A stretch of 29,528 nucleotides of DNA from a virus, in IMG/VR virus record IMGVR_UViG_3300034198_013568, positions 1 to 29,528 of that record; one strand, given 5' to 3'. The translations under genes and the position numbers were made by a program. The notes under the pieces are model-generated. The model made no database searches. It was given only the letters and a program-made list of their open reading frames with translations, and was not told the origin of the DNA. Position 1 is the first letter of the stretch. Each line of letters starts with the position of its first letter. Shown in pieces: positions 1 to 12,117 of this stretch.

Positions 1-136
1 CGTCTATTCCGAGCTGTCAGCTACATCGAAGGGAATTCTTTATCCTCACTGCTTCTTACAGAGGCTACGATAAAGGTTTCTTCTTTGATTTACGCGGGTG
101 TAAGTTGCGCCTTCTTCTTTAGTCAGACTGACTATA

Positions 137-211
137 CCCCGAAGCCTTGCTCTGATAATAACTTGAGAATTTAAGCCCTCAAGAGGCGTTTAGAGTATTG
201 GACTTTCGGGG
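137..211. ncRNA. Nested stem-loop, structured RNA element
   Basis: CCCCGAA (137-143) pairs perfectly with TTCGGGG (205-211). Directly inside, GCCT (144-147) pairs with AGGC (184-187), and a perfect 6-bp hairpin CTTGAG/CTCAAG (162-167 with 178-183) lies within that. A 17-nt single strand (188-204) sits on one side only. Three nested perfect helices are unlikely by chance in A+T-rich phage DNA. The coding strand of the RNA is not decided by these pairs alone. Confidence 0.45.
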
Positions 212-268
212 CTTATTCTTTGCCTAGTTGTATTTTAATTTTATTTGGATAAATTAAGATACCTTAGG

Positions 269-318
269 CCCGCCATCTTCCCCCTTGAAATATAGGTGAC
301 TAGAGGGCGGGTATTTTT
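269..318 (+). terminator. Possible rho-independent terminator, rightward
   Basis: CCCGCC (269-274) pairs with GGCGGG (306-311). After one A/G mismatch the stem continues with TCT/AGA (276-278 with 302-304). The plus strand then reads GTATTTTTTG, a short U-run. The 23-nt loop is long for a classical terminator, so this may instead be one helix of the structured RNA region. No rightward gene lies upstream within the window. Confidence 0.35.
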
Positions 319-423
319 TGCCCAGTTTTTTCACTGTTAGGGTCATCAGAATCTAGTCTTTCCTAAAAGTCAAAAGCAATTTTTTATTCGAGTTGTCCCT
401 TTTGTCTATTCTCGATCGTATGT

Positions 424-549
424 CCCCCGCTGGTGCGATCCTTTCGGAGTCGTTCGGGGGCACTTTTCCCGCTCTATCCCCCGCTACGCAGTGAATAGAA
501 CCTAACGCATTTCTGCGCTTTTCTATGCACATTTTTTGCATATGCATAG
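424..549 (-). ncRNA. Group of hairpins with GNRA tetraloops
   Basis: Three hairpins lie close together. (1) CCCCCG/CGGGGG (424-429 with 455-460) encloses an inner stem (436-441 with 446-452, one bulged base) whose loop on the minus strand is GAAA. (2) CGCA/TGCG (506-509 with 514-517) also has a minus-strand GAAA loop. (3) CTATGCA/TGCATAG (523-529 with 543-549) is a 7-bp stem with a 13-nt loop. The 9-mer TCCCCCGCT occurs twice (423-431 and 477-485). GNRA loops on one strand only argue for a minus-strand transcript. The RNA class is unknown. Confidence 0.4.
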
Positions 550-598
550 AAATACGAAGAAATTAAACATAACAACCGAACGTGTCGATTGAGTAATA

Positions 599-704
599 GG
601 AAAAGGAAGGATTTGAACCTCCGATTAGAGCGTTGCCGCTCATTGTTACCATCCACAACCTAAGTTGCTTAGGAGCTTTTCAAGGCTCTCCACATTACTT
701 TTCC
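599..704 (-). ncRNA. tRNA-like RNA with six stem-loop arms
   Basis: Read on the minus strand, the element opens with GGAAAAG and closes with CTTTTCC, a perfect 7-bp acceptor stem. Just inside the 3' strand is a canonical T-arm: GGAGG, loop TTCAAAT, CCTTC. Between them, after a 9-nt linker, come four stem-loops with no spacer at all: GAGC-CTTGAAAA-GCTC (688-673), CTAAG-CAA-CTTAG (672-660), GTTGT-GGATGGTA-ACAAT (659-642) and GAGCG-GCAA-CGCTC (641-628). Then come TAATC and the T-arm. At 106 nt it is longer than normal class II tRNAs and has no recognisable D-arm. The last hairpin sits where the long variable arm of tRNA-Ser or tRNA-Leu would be. The first loop contains CTTGAAA, as in tRNA-Ser(UGA) anticodon loops, though with one extra base. 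No CCA is encoded; the 3' flank is TATT. It may be a highly divergent tRNA, an interrupted tRNA, or a tRNA mimic within a larger RNA. Confidence 0.5.
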
Positions 705-713
705 ATTGAATCT

Positions 714-785
714 ATTCGACTCAGCGAGAATGTCTTTCTTCCTAAAACATTCTCACAAAGGCGAATCCGGGGATTTTAACCCCCG
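714..785 (-). ncRNA. Two-hairpin RNA element upstream of the tRNA-like RNA
   Basis: ATTCG/CGAAT (714-718 with 762-766) encloses two 7-nt internal-loop strands and a perfect 8-bp stem GAGAATGT/ACATTCTC (726-733 with 747-754) with a 13-nt loop. Two bases further is a 5-bp G+C hairpin CGGGG/CCCCG (768-772 with 781-785) with an 8-nt loop. On the minus strand this last arm reads somewhat like a T-arm followed by an acceptor strand, but no matching 5' acceptor is present, so I do not call it a tRNA. It lies just 5' of the tRNA-like element on the same presumed transcript. Confidence 0.4.
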
Positions 786-790
786 AACCC

Positions 791-841
791 AAAAAATCAA
801 TACTTAAACAGAAAAGTTCAAAAATCGTGAAGTTAAGTATT
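791..841 (-). terminator. Possible leftward terminator after the accessory genes
   Basis: A perfect 9-bp inverted repeat, AATACTTAA (799-807) with TTAAGTATT (833-841), is followed on the minus strand by GATTTTTTGGG, a U-run directly after the stem. The stem is A+T-rich and the loop is 25 nt, so it would be weak. It lies about 110 bases beyond the stop of the last leftward gene and before the structured RNAs. It could end the accessory transcript or only attenuate it. Confidence 0.35.
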
Positions 842-949
842 AAGAAAAAGATTAAAAAGTTTTTTTCTATAATACAAGGAAAAAGTAAAAAAGTTTACCA
901 GGTTGCTACATCTAGTAAAATCAAGGCTTGGTCTATACTACATTCTTTA

Positions 950-1438
950 CTACATTCCTTTGGTAAAAGGATCCGATACAAAAAGTCCGGTGAATTTATT
1001 TGAAGCCATTGGAATATTGGCTGTTATGACAGTTTGGCCATCTTTTGTGATACAATTTGTTAGAACATCAGAGGCTGGCACACTAAGTGCTGGGGTTACT
1101 ACATCATTGACCGCGTCTGTTTTCTTTTTGCGAGATTCTTTTAATTTTAAAACTGCAGCTTTGAGTTTTTCTCTAGTTAGCAAGAAGAAGTTGATCGAGC
1201 GTTGTCTAGTTATTAATAAAAATCTGATCGAGCGTTCTTTAAGTTTGAATTGATTTAATTCTAAGACAGCCGATCTAGCGTCGACTGTGTCAAAGCCAGT
1301 GTGTTTTAAAACATTTTGCGCTTGAAGAATTCGCTGAAGACAAACTTCTGCGCCGTCTCTAGCTCCTGGCAATTTTGGATTTTTTAAGTAAATCAAAAGA
1401 AGTTTGCGATTGATGCTGATGTATTTTTTAATTTTCAT
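950..1438 (-). CDS. Chimeric protein with a tail-fibre-derived C-terminus
   Basis: The product has 162 residues. Residues 1-70 look globular and helical and match nothing I recognise. Residues 65-105 are basic and contain two 11-residue repeats (RSIRFLLITRQ, RSINFFLLTRE). From about residue 113 the protein changes character: VTPALSVPASDVLTNC matches VTPALGTPASGVLTNC in the large tail fibre encoded at 26532-28115. The following DGQTVITANIPM with KFTGL is a motif widespread in phage tail fibres. The frame then stops soon after. The similarity also shows in the DNA, so this is a fibre fragment lying in the opposite orientation to the fibre genes. The start is 6 bases after the stop of the upstream gene. 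It may be a live chimera, a recombination remnant or a decaying gene. The opposite-strand frame over the same bases also resembles the opposite-strand frame of the fibre, as expected for DNA homology. Confidence 0.6.
   Translation of the reverse strand: MKIKKYISINRKLLLIYLKNPKLPGARDGAEVCLQRILQAQNVLKHTGFDTVDARSAVLELNQFKLKERSIRFLLITRQRSINFFLLTREKLKAAVLKLKESRKKKTDAVNDVVTPALSVPASDVLTNCITKDGQTVITANIPMASNKFTGLFVSDPFTKGM
1173..1236. repeat. Two tandem 33-bp units (CTAGTTA ... GATCGAGCGTT)
   Basis: CTAGTTA occurs at 1173-1179 and 1206-1212, and GATCGAGCGTT at 1193-1203 and 1226-1236, both with a period of exactly 33 bases. A degenerate third GATCTAGCGT begins at 1272. The period equals 11 codons, so the repeat shows as two 11-residue repeats in the overlapping leftward gene. 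The conserved boxes could alternatively be protein-binding iterons; the middle of each unit is not conserved. Confidence 0.55.
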
Positions 1439-2654: not shown

Positions 2655-3140
2655 TTAAAATTGCGATTGATCCCAGATTTCAATCGGTAAAAATTTGCGG
2701 CATATGTCAGCCGTTTGCTTTTGATTTTGTTTTTTAGCATTAGCGGCATAAACATAAATATCAGCAAGAGCAGCAGCAGAAGCAACAGAAGCAGCAGCAG
2801 AATAAGCAGCATGAGCAGCAGAATAAGCAGCATGAGCAGCAGCATGAGCAACAACATTTAACTCTTCTTTCGTTGCCCTGCCTTCACCGAAAGCGATTGC
2901 CACATCGACAGCTTTGACACTTCTCTCATCAGTCATCAAGTGTCTCACTGTGTTGGCGCAATGTGCTTTTGCTAGTGTTAATTCCTTCAATGATTCGGGA
3001 TTTGTTCTTGCAAATAGCCATAAAATCCAGTTTCCGCGCTCACAAGTTTCTAGAAATTGCTCAAGCGTTAGATCTTTCGCGAATTCAAAGCTGTTCAAGC
3101 AAGCGTTGCGTTTTTCTAAAAAAGTTTTTAGTGTTTTCAT
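2655..3140 (-). CDS. Alanine-rich Imm5-like protein
   Basis: The product has 161 residues. The N-terminal half (MKTLKTFLEKRNACLNSFEF..., then CERGNWILWL at about 34-43 and LTLAKAHCANTVRHL) matches a family common in phages and bacteria, often labelled putative immunity or Imm5-like. These proteins have a helical N-domain with a C-x-x-G-x-W-x-L-W motif followed by an alanine-rich tract. Residues 97-132 are the tract, with AHAAYSAAHAAYSAA and related units. The C-terminus (ADICRKFLPIEIW) is also typical of the family. The biochemical function of phage members is not established, and the immunity label comes from gene context in toxin loci. Confidence 0.6.
   Translation of the reverse strand: MKTLKTFLEKRNACLNSFEFAKDLTLEQFLETCERGNWILWLFARTNPESLKELTLAKAHCANTVRHLMTDERSVKAVDVAIAFGEGRATKEELNVVAHAAAHAAYSAAHAAYSAAASVASAAALADIYVYAANAKKQNQKQTADICRKFLPIEIWDQSQF
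2768..2852. repeat. GCA-type trinucleotide low-complexity tract
   Basis: The plus strand repeats AGCAGC, AGAATAAGCAGC and ATGAGCAGC units. It encodes the alanine-rich tract of the Imm5-like protein on the minus strand. Such slippage-prone tracts vary in length among relatives. The apparent Leu/Met-rich frame overlapping it in another minus-strand frame is a by-product. Confidence 0.7.
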
Positions 3141-3240
3141 GTTAGTAGTTTTTAAATTATCAAGATTGGAAGTGATCTTGATTTCTGAAGTGTGCTGCTT
3201 GTTTTTAATGTTGCAACTATTTATTTAAGTTTTTTTAAAT

Positions 3241-3777
3241 TTATTTTTTAGACAGCGCAAGCATTAACACGCCCATTTCGCCCATTTTTTTTTCTGTTTT
3301 GTCGTCAAAAATTTGCGCAATATTATTTTTGATTTTTACAGTTACGAAATTGGTACTCGTGAAATGTTTAAAAAGTTGAGGATCGACACAAAAAGAAAAC
3401 TCCGCTTCTTCGCACGGAAAAGGGTTCATCACGCGCGTGATGTCGGGGACTTGGCCAACATTTGCGGCGTTAATTACTAAAGCGCCGTTGCTTAAAATAA
3501 GCCCGTCTTTTCCAGCTTGTGAGATCTCTAAATTAGATTTGTCGTTCAACATTTTCAAAGCAGAAAAGCTCAATTGGAAGCGTTCGACGTTTTCAAGTGT
3601 TGCATTCAGTTCTAGCCTAATCGCGACGTGGCCATTTGTTGCTAACGCCTCGGCGTTGTAGCCGCGCTTTATGATTAAAAAATTAGAGAGGTAAGGACGC
3701 GTTTCATCTTTTTTAAAAAGCTTCGCAGCGTCTTTGAGTTTTTTAATGTCAGAAGTTGTGATTGTTGTAATTTTCAT
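3241..3777 (-). CDS. Possible sliding-clamp-like (DnaN-domain) protein
   Basis: The product has 178 residues. The opening pattern (KITTITTSDIKKLKDAAKLF, then RPYLSNFLI) and ATNGHVAIRL at residues 46-55 resemble the first domain of the bacterial beta clamp, where an A-T-D-G-H-R-L-A loop follows a strand; the second D is N here. The remainder alternates beta strands with a helix at about 70-85 (FSALKMLND), again clamp-like. A full clamp has three such domains and about 370 residues; this has at most one and a half. It could be a mini-clamp, a clamp decoy or an unrelated beta-rich protein. No polymerase gene lies nearby in the window. Confidence 0.4.
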   Translation of the reverse strand: MKITTITTSDIKKLKDAAKLFKKDETRPYLSNFLIIKRGYNAEALATNGHVAIRLELNATLENVERFQLSFSALKMLNDKSNLEISQAGKDGLILSNGALVINAANVGQVPDITRVMNPFPCEEAEFSFCVDPQLFKHFTSTNFVTVKIKNNIAQIFDDKTEKKMGEMGVLMLALSKK

Positions 3778-11510: not shown

Positions 11511-11789
11511 ATGAGTCAGAAATTAGAAATGGAAGAATTAAAGGAATGGATCGTGCATCCAACTACTTTAAAGTTTAGACAAATTATCCGTAAAACCCGC
11601 GAACGTCTTTTAGAAGACATGAGTGAAAATTATAGCAATAGAGATTTAACTCTTGCTGGATTTGGAGGCTGCGAAGCACTTCAAAGAATCTCAGATAATA
11701 TTAGCGAAGGATCTAAAGAGGATAATCTTAAAAACTTACTAGAAATCTTTCATTTTAACGCTGACAAAGGGGTACAAAATGAAAAATAA
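11511..11789 (+). CDS. Small unknown protein, 92 residues
   Basis: I prefer the ATG at 11511, which follows GAGTAAAATT as at the scaffold gene, over a TTG 12 bases earlier. The product is helical: MEELKEWIVHPTTLKFRQII, then KTRERLLEDMSENYSNRDL, a glycine turn AGFGG and CEALQRISDNISEG. The WIVHPTTLKF start is common among small phage proteins found beside portal or capsid genes. Its role is unknown. It overlaps the GroES gene by 11 bases. Confidence 0.55.
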   Translation: MSQKLEMEELKEWIVHPTTLKFRQIIRKTRERLLEDMSENYSNRDLTLAGFGGCEALQRISDNISEGSKEDNLKNLLEIFHFNADKGVQNEK

Positions 11790-12117
11790 ATTAAATCACT
11801 CAGGCTGGAGAGTTCCTGAGTATAAAGTTCTTTTAAAACCTGACGTTGTAGAAGAAAAAACAAAAGGCGGCATCATTCTTACGCAAAAAATACAAGAAGA
11901 TGAGCAAAATGCCAAGCTAGAAGCGACGATTGTTGGAATTGGAGCTAAATCTTTTGATTCTGGCACTTGGGAAGATAAGCCAAATTTAGGCGATAGAGTA
12001 ATGATCCGTAGATATGCGGGGATTATTCTTTCAAAAGATCAAACTGCGGATAGCCATGAATATCGAATCGTGATGGATCGTGAGATTGTCGCAATTAAAG
12101 AAAATAATAAAAAATAA
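11779..12117 (+). CDS. GroES-like co-chaperonin
   Basis: The product has 112 residues, close to the length of phage Cpn10 proteins (host GroES is about 97). VLLKPDVVEEKTKGGIILTQ (residues 18-36) matches the first strand and mobile loop, with GGIIL (30-34) corresponding to the GroEL-contacting G-G-I-V-L. ATIVGIGAKS and LGDRVMIRRYAGI match the central barrel strands, and EYRIVMDREIVAI (about 94-106) the conserved C-terminal strand. A phage-encoded GroES likely caps host GroEL to fold the capsid protein, as T4 gp31 does. Its place between portal and scaffold supports this. Confidence 0.85.
   Translation: MKNKLNHSGWRVPEYKVLLKPDVVEEKTKGGIILTQKIQEDEQNAKLEATIVGIGAKSFDSGTWEDKPNLGDRVMIRRYAGIILSKDQTADSHEYRIVMDREIVAIKENNKK

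Follow-up and report, generated by a model that had tools for sequence, protein, structure and literature searches.

Phage tRNA clusters can carry extra stable RNAs, for example RNAs C and D of T4. GOLLD RNAs are phage-borne, large and ornate, their function is unknown, and they lie near tRNAs or contain them; phage tRNAs are sometimes found in their linkers (PMC12286853). ROOL RNAs are also phage-borne, several hundred bases long and often situated near tRNAs (PMC12286853).

The window analysed here is the whole 29,528-nucleotide stretch (29.5 kb) of IMG/VR record IMGVR_UViG_3300034198_013568, a phage record that encodes terminase, portal, head and tail proteins. From the sequence, its positions 1-890 had been predicted to hold a large structured phage RNA, possibly a member of GOLLD or ROOL or a new class. 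Membership of these families was not borne out. No GOLLD or ROOL match was obtained with the Rfam 15 covariance models at gathering thresholds in the window and its relatives, or at E<=10 in window positions 1-1000. HEARO, group I introns and group II introns gave no Rfam match in strict or relaxed mode, and tmRNA was matched neither by Rfam nor by ARAGORN. The sole Rfam match in 1-890 was a marginal tRNA at 598-704. Relaxed-mode matches to miRNA, plastid 3'UTR, isrG, SmY, U6 and Trp_leader were below their cut-offs and were rejected as chance or repeat-driven. A title and abstract search of the open-licence literature returned no description of comparable phage RNA arrays. The broader idea of a large phage RNA locus stood in part: the region is structured, conserved and covarying and has tRNA-like parts, with real tRNAs in relatives, but a single molecule is the less likely form. 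Region 1-890 is probably the 5' minus-strand part of an accessory island in which small structured RNAs form an exchangeable array.

The non-coding region and its modules

Region 1-890 forms one end of a longer non-coding island, its 5' part on the minus strand. The island is truncated here, because base 1 of the window is the contig end and falls inside module A. The nearest relative, L052, extends about 45 bases beyond this point and reaches the end of the END hairpin (L-numbers are loci of related IMG/VR records; module names are our own). The window possesses modules T1, tRNA-like, M5, CC, HP, LK and A. The features are as follows.

1-132, minus strand: module A, truncated at the beginning of the contig; the pseudoknot comes first, followed by a covarying 7-bp helix
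109-133, minus strand: H-type pseudoknot AGUC-A-GUCU-GACU-AAAGAAGA-AGGC, with a 4-bp stem, a 1-nt loop, a second 4-bp stem and an 8-nt A-rich loop
130-218, minus strand: block closed by the long-range helix GACTATACCCCGAA / TTCGGGGCTTATTC (inverted repeat I4, 79% complementary), kept in L052
219-316, no strand assigned: insert of the window, missing from L052 (window/L052 alignment)
318-420, minus strand: linker module LK, common to L052 and partly to L018
420-467, minus strand: HP hairpin GUGCCCCCG...GAAA...CGGGGGAC with a GAAA tetraloop; model match in 13 loci
475-495, minus strand: CC module TTCACTGCGTAGCGGGGGATA
502-563, minus strand: M5 module, a 13-bp hairpin and a CGCA-GAAA-TGCG hairpin
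598-704, minus strand: tRNA-like module (Rfam tRNA, 30.3 bits; fold)
712-802, minus strand: T1 module, made of a pair of hairpins, with T-arm-like GGGGGTTAAAATCCCCG in the first; 83.5% identity in L018, also present in L052
795-841, minus strand: terminator-like inverted repeat (I15, 100% complementary) with a T-run, after gene 950-1438
950-1438, minus strand: nearest credible upstream gene, 162 aa; weak PHROG match only, no Pfam match

A protein-coding reading of the region was rejected. None of the six open frames in or touching it found a PHROGs match, even at E<=1, and no reading frame is kept among the homologues, since single-base and other non-triplet indels separate the homologous modules. 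Compared with shuffled sequences, the region showed an MFE z-score of -7.1 on the minus strand and -5.8 on the plus strand. The original prediction of a structured non-coding region of about 900 bases was thus upheld, and its count of at least eight perfect helices was about right, as the region has seven clusters of perfect hairpins of at least 6 bp where shuffles give 2.6 (5 of 200 shuffles reached seven). GNRA tetraloops had been expected in one orientation only. Two with at least four Watson-Crick closing pairs were located on the minus strand (GAGCG-GCAA-CGCTC and CGCA-GAAA-TGCG; 0.19 expected), but the plus strand also has one weak case in which all closing pairs are A/T, so that the expectation is nearly, though not strictly, true.

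Module A of the window is 89% identical to that of L018 and 84% to that of L002. The covariance models of A and HP scored the window at 149.9 and 77.3 bits, respectively, values which are partly by construction because the window is included in the model alignments. The terminator-like repeat at 795-841 has counterparts in L052 and L018, as read from the sequence. Within the insert, a plus-strand terminator-like hairpin is situated at 269-311 and is followed by a T-run, with another at 305-323; this 269-323 element runs opposite to the island RNA strand. A hammerhead core picked out by eye in LK (CTGATGA...CGAAA) was dropped as stem II is missing. An alternative GUGC/GCAC pairing in HP, a candidate pseudoknot also noticed by eye, is broken in L040.

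The predicted tRNA-like module was recovered on the minus strand of 598-704. On folding, it shares an acceptor stem, a T arm and a D-like arm with tRNA (RF00005) and differs from it in an extra hairpin, an 8-nt anticodon-type loop GGATGGTA in place of the 7-nt loop required, the lack of U33 and the absence of an encoded 3' CCA (the sequence ends CTTTTCC-T-ATTAC); its variable arm is capped by GCAA. The missing CCA is a weak criterion, since CCA may be added post-transcriptionally. The Rfam score of 30.3 bits exceeded the cut-off of 29 in E-value mode, while the element was not listed as a tRNA in gathering mode over the whole window, and no tRNA gene was called there by ARAGORN with default settings. 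Its reading as an intron-bearing tRNA was rejected, as relaxed ARAGORN intron settings gave mutually inconsistent models. The element is a marginal, aberrant tRNA match. It is intact but diverged in L052 and internally deleted in L018, which retains only its closing stem. L052 also possesses a tRNA-Cys, found by both ARAGORN and Rfam (55 bits), and a degenerate tRNA-like element with a CAU anticodon and encoded CCA. Other forms were seen elsewhere. In the islands of L038 and L048, minus-strand tRNA-like elements with an encoded CCA and a very large middle part are about 145 nt long, and mini elements of about 54 nt, limited to an acceptor stem, a single hairpin and a T arm, occur at L005 3718-3772 and L011 5832-5885.

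Two protein genes of the window may be mentioned here. A phage GroES-like co-chaperonin (PHROG 3188) is encoded at 11779-12117, downstream of the portal gene. The gene at 2655-3140 on the minus strand, present also in L039 and L055, contains GCA/GCT-type triplet repeats, and similar repeats in those two loci draw the below-cut-off isrG match.

Related islands and module exchange

The first relatives were identified through the terminase and further ones by pattern scans with conserved stretches. Terminase relatives yielded homologous non-coding DNA at four loci (L002, L005, L011 and L018). Besides the window, 19 IMG/VR records of uncultivated phages were reached with an island or END motif; some of them, such as the record holding L047, have the END motif only. 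Comparable islands were not found in cultured phages, plasmids or the bacterial genome collection at the sensitivity used, and diverged copies may exist in those genomes since the scans used exact patterns. The A and HP models gave no match in the terminase relatives L010, L015 and L031, which may therefore lack the island.

The islands measure 0.6-2 kb and are composed of about 20 recurrent RNA modules with fixed order and orientation and variable presence, each phage having a subset. The order is (M10, M9, CC) - M5 - (K1, GS, M4, DG) - HP - (LK, RV, RG, A, AV, GT, GA) - KP - END, after which some islands add M2 and a second END. The same slots are also occupied by genuine tRNAs and small protein genes, one of which, in L048, resembles an HNH endonuclease by eye. 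Between the window and L052 the backbone stretches are nearly identical and the differences are whole elements gained or lost: the tRNA-Cys, the degenerate CAU element, M4 and DG are confined to L052 and the insert at 219-316 to the window. In L018, a gene at 3154-3759 between two END copies has a weak Haem_oxygenas_2 match, just under the Pfam cut-off.

Fixed module order, the 0.6-2 kb size, the phage context and nearby tRNAs would also suit one large ornate RNA like GOLLD or ROOL, with the modules as domains of a single fold and the inserts in permissive linkers, the more so as GOLLD linkers are known to accommodate phage tRNAs (PMC12286853). This is unlikely given the lack of any Rfam match to either family, the protein genes with their own starts between modules, and module sets which are too different and show no apparent common core beyond HP, M5 and END. 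A pairing of the 573-591 region with LK in the window is, moreover, not kept in the L052 sequence. An array of small RNAs fits better, because relatives gain and lose separable modules, among which genes and tRNAs are interspersed.

Cassettes RV, DG, HP and M5 reach 98-100% nucleotide identity between phages (RV 99-100%, DG up to 100%), while the DnaB proteins of the same record group share only about 27-37% identity with the L005 protein. RV, for example, is common to L005, L051 and L053, and the DnaB proteins of the latter two are 36-37% identical to that of L005. The terminase family of the window was found in 6 of the 19 other records; in two long island-bearing records (41 and 55 kb) it was not detected, though records may be incomplete. 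With modules of such identity beside such divergent helicases, the cassettes would either move between phages or be extraordinarily constrained relative to the proteins. Recent exchange seems the simplest reading of the module identity, extreme constraint being the other.

The island lies within a minus-strand gene block. Where the downstream side on the minus strand is visible, a DUF6291 or DUF1376 protein and DnaB helicase are encoded there. In most loci a leader after END contains two copies of a 6-7 nt word, the second of them adjoining the start codon, with the complementary sequence in a hairpin loop between the copies (L002 3170-3260, L052 from 13113, L011, L018, L038, L043, L047, L053, L055 and L056). 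The word differs between phages (AGGGGAC, GTGCGG, GTTCGG, GTTAGG, GTGCAG). Such a copy-complement-copy triplet was present in 15 of 22 leaders compared with about 2 in shuffles, a count in which L049 has it at an unrelated place and L056 is counted twice. This leader, which lies outside the window, resembles a switch of two competing pairings that would control translation of the following gene. Its position shortly after the END hairpin and its ending beside a start codon, with the island upstream of DUF6291/DnaB, could mean that the whole island serves the replication operon as a long cis-regulatory leader, its modules controlling downstream transcription or translation. We consider this unlikely: the array varies greatly although the gene order downstream stays similar, CCA-bearing tRNAs and whole genes lie inside the array, and in L018 it is separated from the replication genes by a further gene.

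RNA strand, pseudoknot and covariation

By alignment folding, consensus folds were more stable on the minus than on the plus strand in all seven modules tested. The whole-island MFE was lower on the minus strand in 14 of 14 loci and its z-score lower or equal, the z-scores being rough with 16 shuffles per locus. The RNA strand of the island is, on these folding predictions, the minus strand.

The best support for structure and strand comes from a small H-type pseudoknot of unvarying geometry (two 4-bp stems, a 1-nt loop and an 8-nt loop opening ARAGA), which stands at the beginning of module A and recurs in RG and AV, giving three module contexts. Its strict form was counted 14 times across 20 kb of island sequence and not once on the opposite strand, compared with 3 occurrences in total over 100 shuffled sets. 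Ten distinct versions show 100% of cells paired, a figure biased because the versions were picked partly for pairing, with 19 double-change cells; the covariation score was 0.80 against 0.37 when shuffled and <=0.16 when slid. Of the homologues identified from their sequence, L005 and L038 pair incompletely and L040 has one extra base.

The original prediction had proposed a search for covariation among related phages. It was found in the pseudoknot, in A and in M5, and weakly in HP; for most modules the sequences are few and closely related to each other. Module A showed six double-change pairs over six sequences (0 of 500 shuffles reach that), three of them in the 7-bp helix present in every sequence. 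M5 showed 3 (3 of 500 shuffles) and HP 2 (21 of 500 shuffles), so that the covariation of HP alone is weak evidence. The END hairpin has no compensatory changes, folds in consensus on the minus strand only and contains many G.U pairs; it could be a DNA promoter motif.

A DNA-level element, either a replication origin or a recombination hotspot with inverted repeats acting as DNA hairpins, might be proposed as the island adjoins replication genes, exchanges modules and is rich in inverted repeats. The strand asymmetry (G.U pairs on the minus strand and folds favouring that strand) and the covarying pseudoknot with its 8-nt A-rich loop make it quite improbable. Covariation also largely contradicts decay. 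That the island is a decaying tRNA cluster, made of functionless pseudo-tRNA remnants and spacer, is highly improbable, because the non-tRNA modules are the best conserved and covarying ones, even if the tRNA-like elements are aberrant and one has collapsed in L018.

Proposed role and comparison with known systems

The island shows homology from one phage record to the next, modules that keep their order and orientation but vary in presence, a preferred RNA strand, covariation, and either exchange or extreme constraint relative to the proteins; it is probably an array of small structured RNAs. Such an array may be transcribed early as a polycistronic RNA, which host RNases would cut at the tRNA-like and hairpin modules into stable small RNAs. 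Phages would swap the cassettes by homologous recombination in conserved modules, so that each phage would have its own set of small RNAs, which may act in trans, either on the host's translation or against its tRNA-targeting defences. The presence of both tRNA-like and true tRNA members would point to translation or tRNA-cutting defences. As a whole, a modular RNA system with a shared cassette pool, one island upstream of the replication genes, recombinational exchange and each set serving as a toolkit against host translation control or defence is put forward tentatively.

Several of the structured RNA modules in the islands are new to Rfam, and some of these are clearly supported by covariation. 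The islands suggest that phage RNA can be modular and be traded between phages whose helicases are about 30% identical. The recurring pseudoknot is a clear object for structure work. The function of GOLLD and ROOL is an open question, and with a naturally varying array the importance of individual parts can be tested directly.

Compared with known systems, the islands resemble GOLLD in being phage-borne, large, ornate and near or with tRNAs; they differ in having no sequence or structure match and no detected conserved 3' domain of the GOLLD type, and in modules that come and go with protein genes interspersed. With ROOL they share the phage context, the size of several hundred bases and the nearness to tRNAs, but neither a covariance-model match nor a common single architecture. 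Phage tRNA clusters such as that with T4 RNAs C and D are likewise one-strand tandems of tRNAs and small RNAs with gene inserts, whereas the islands are dominated by about 20 recurrent, unrelated non-tRNA modules, possess a recurrent pseudoknot and appear to exchange modules across very diverged helicases. In the proposed reading, RNA cassettes would be exchanged between phages as morons and integron cassettes are for proteins.
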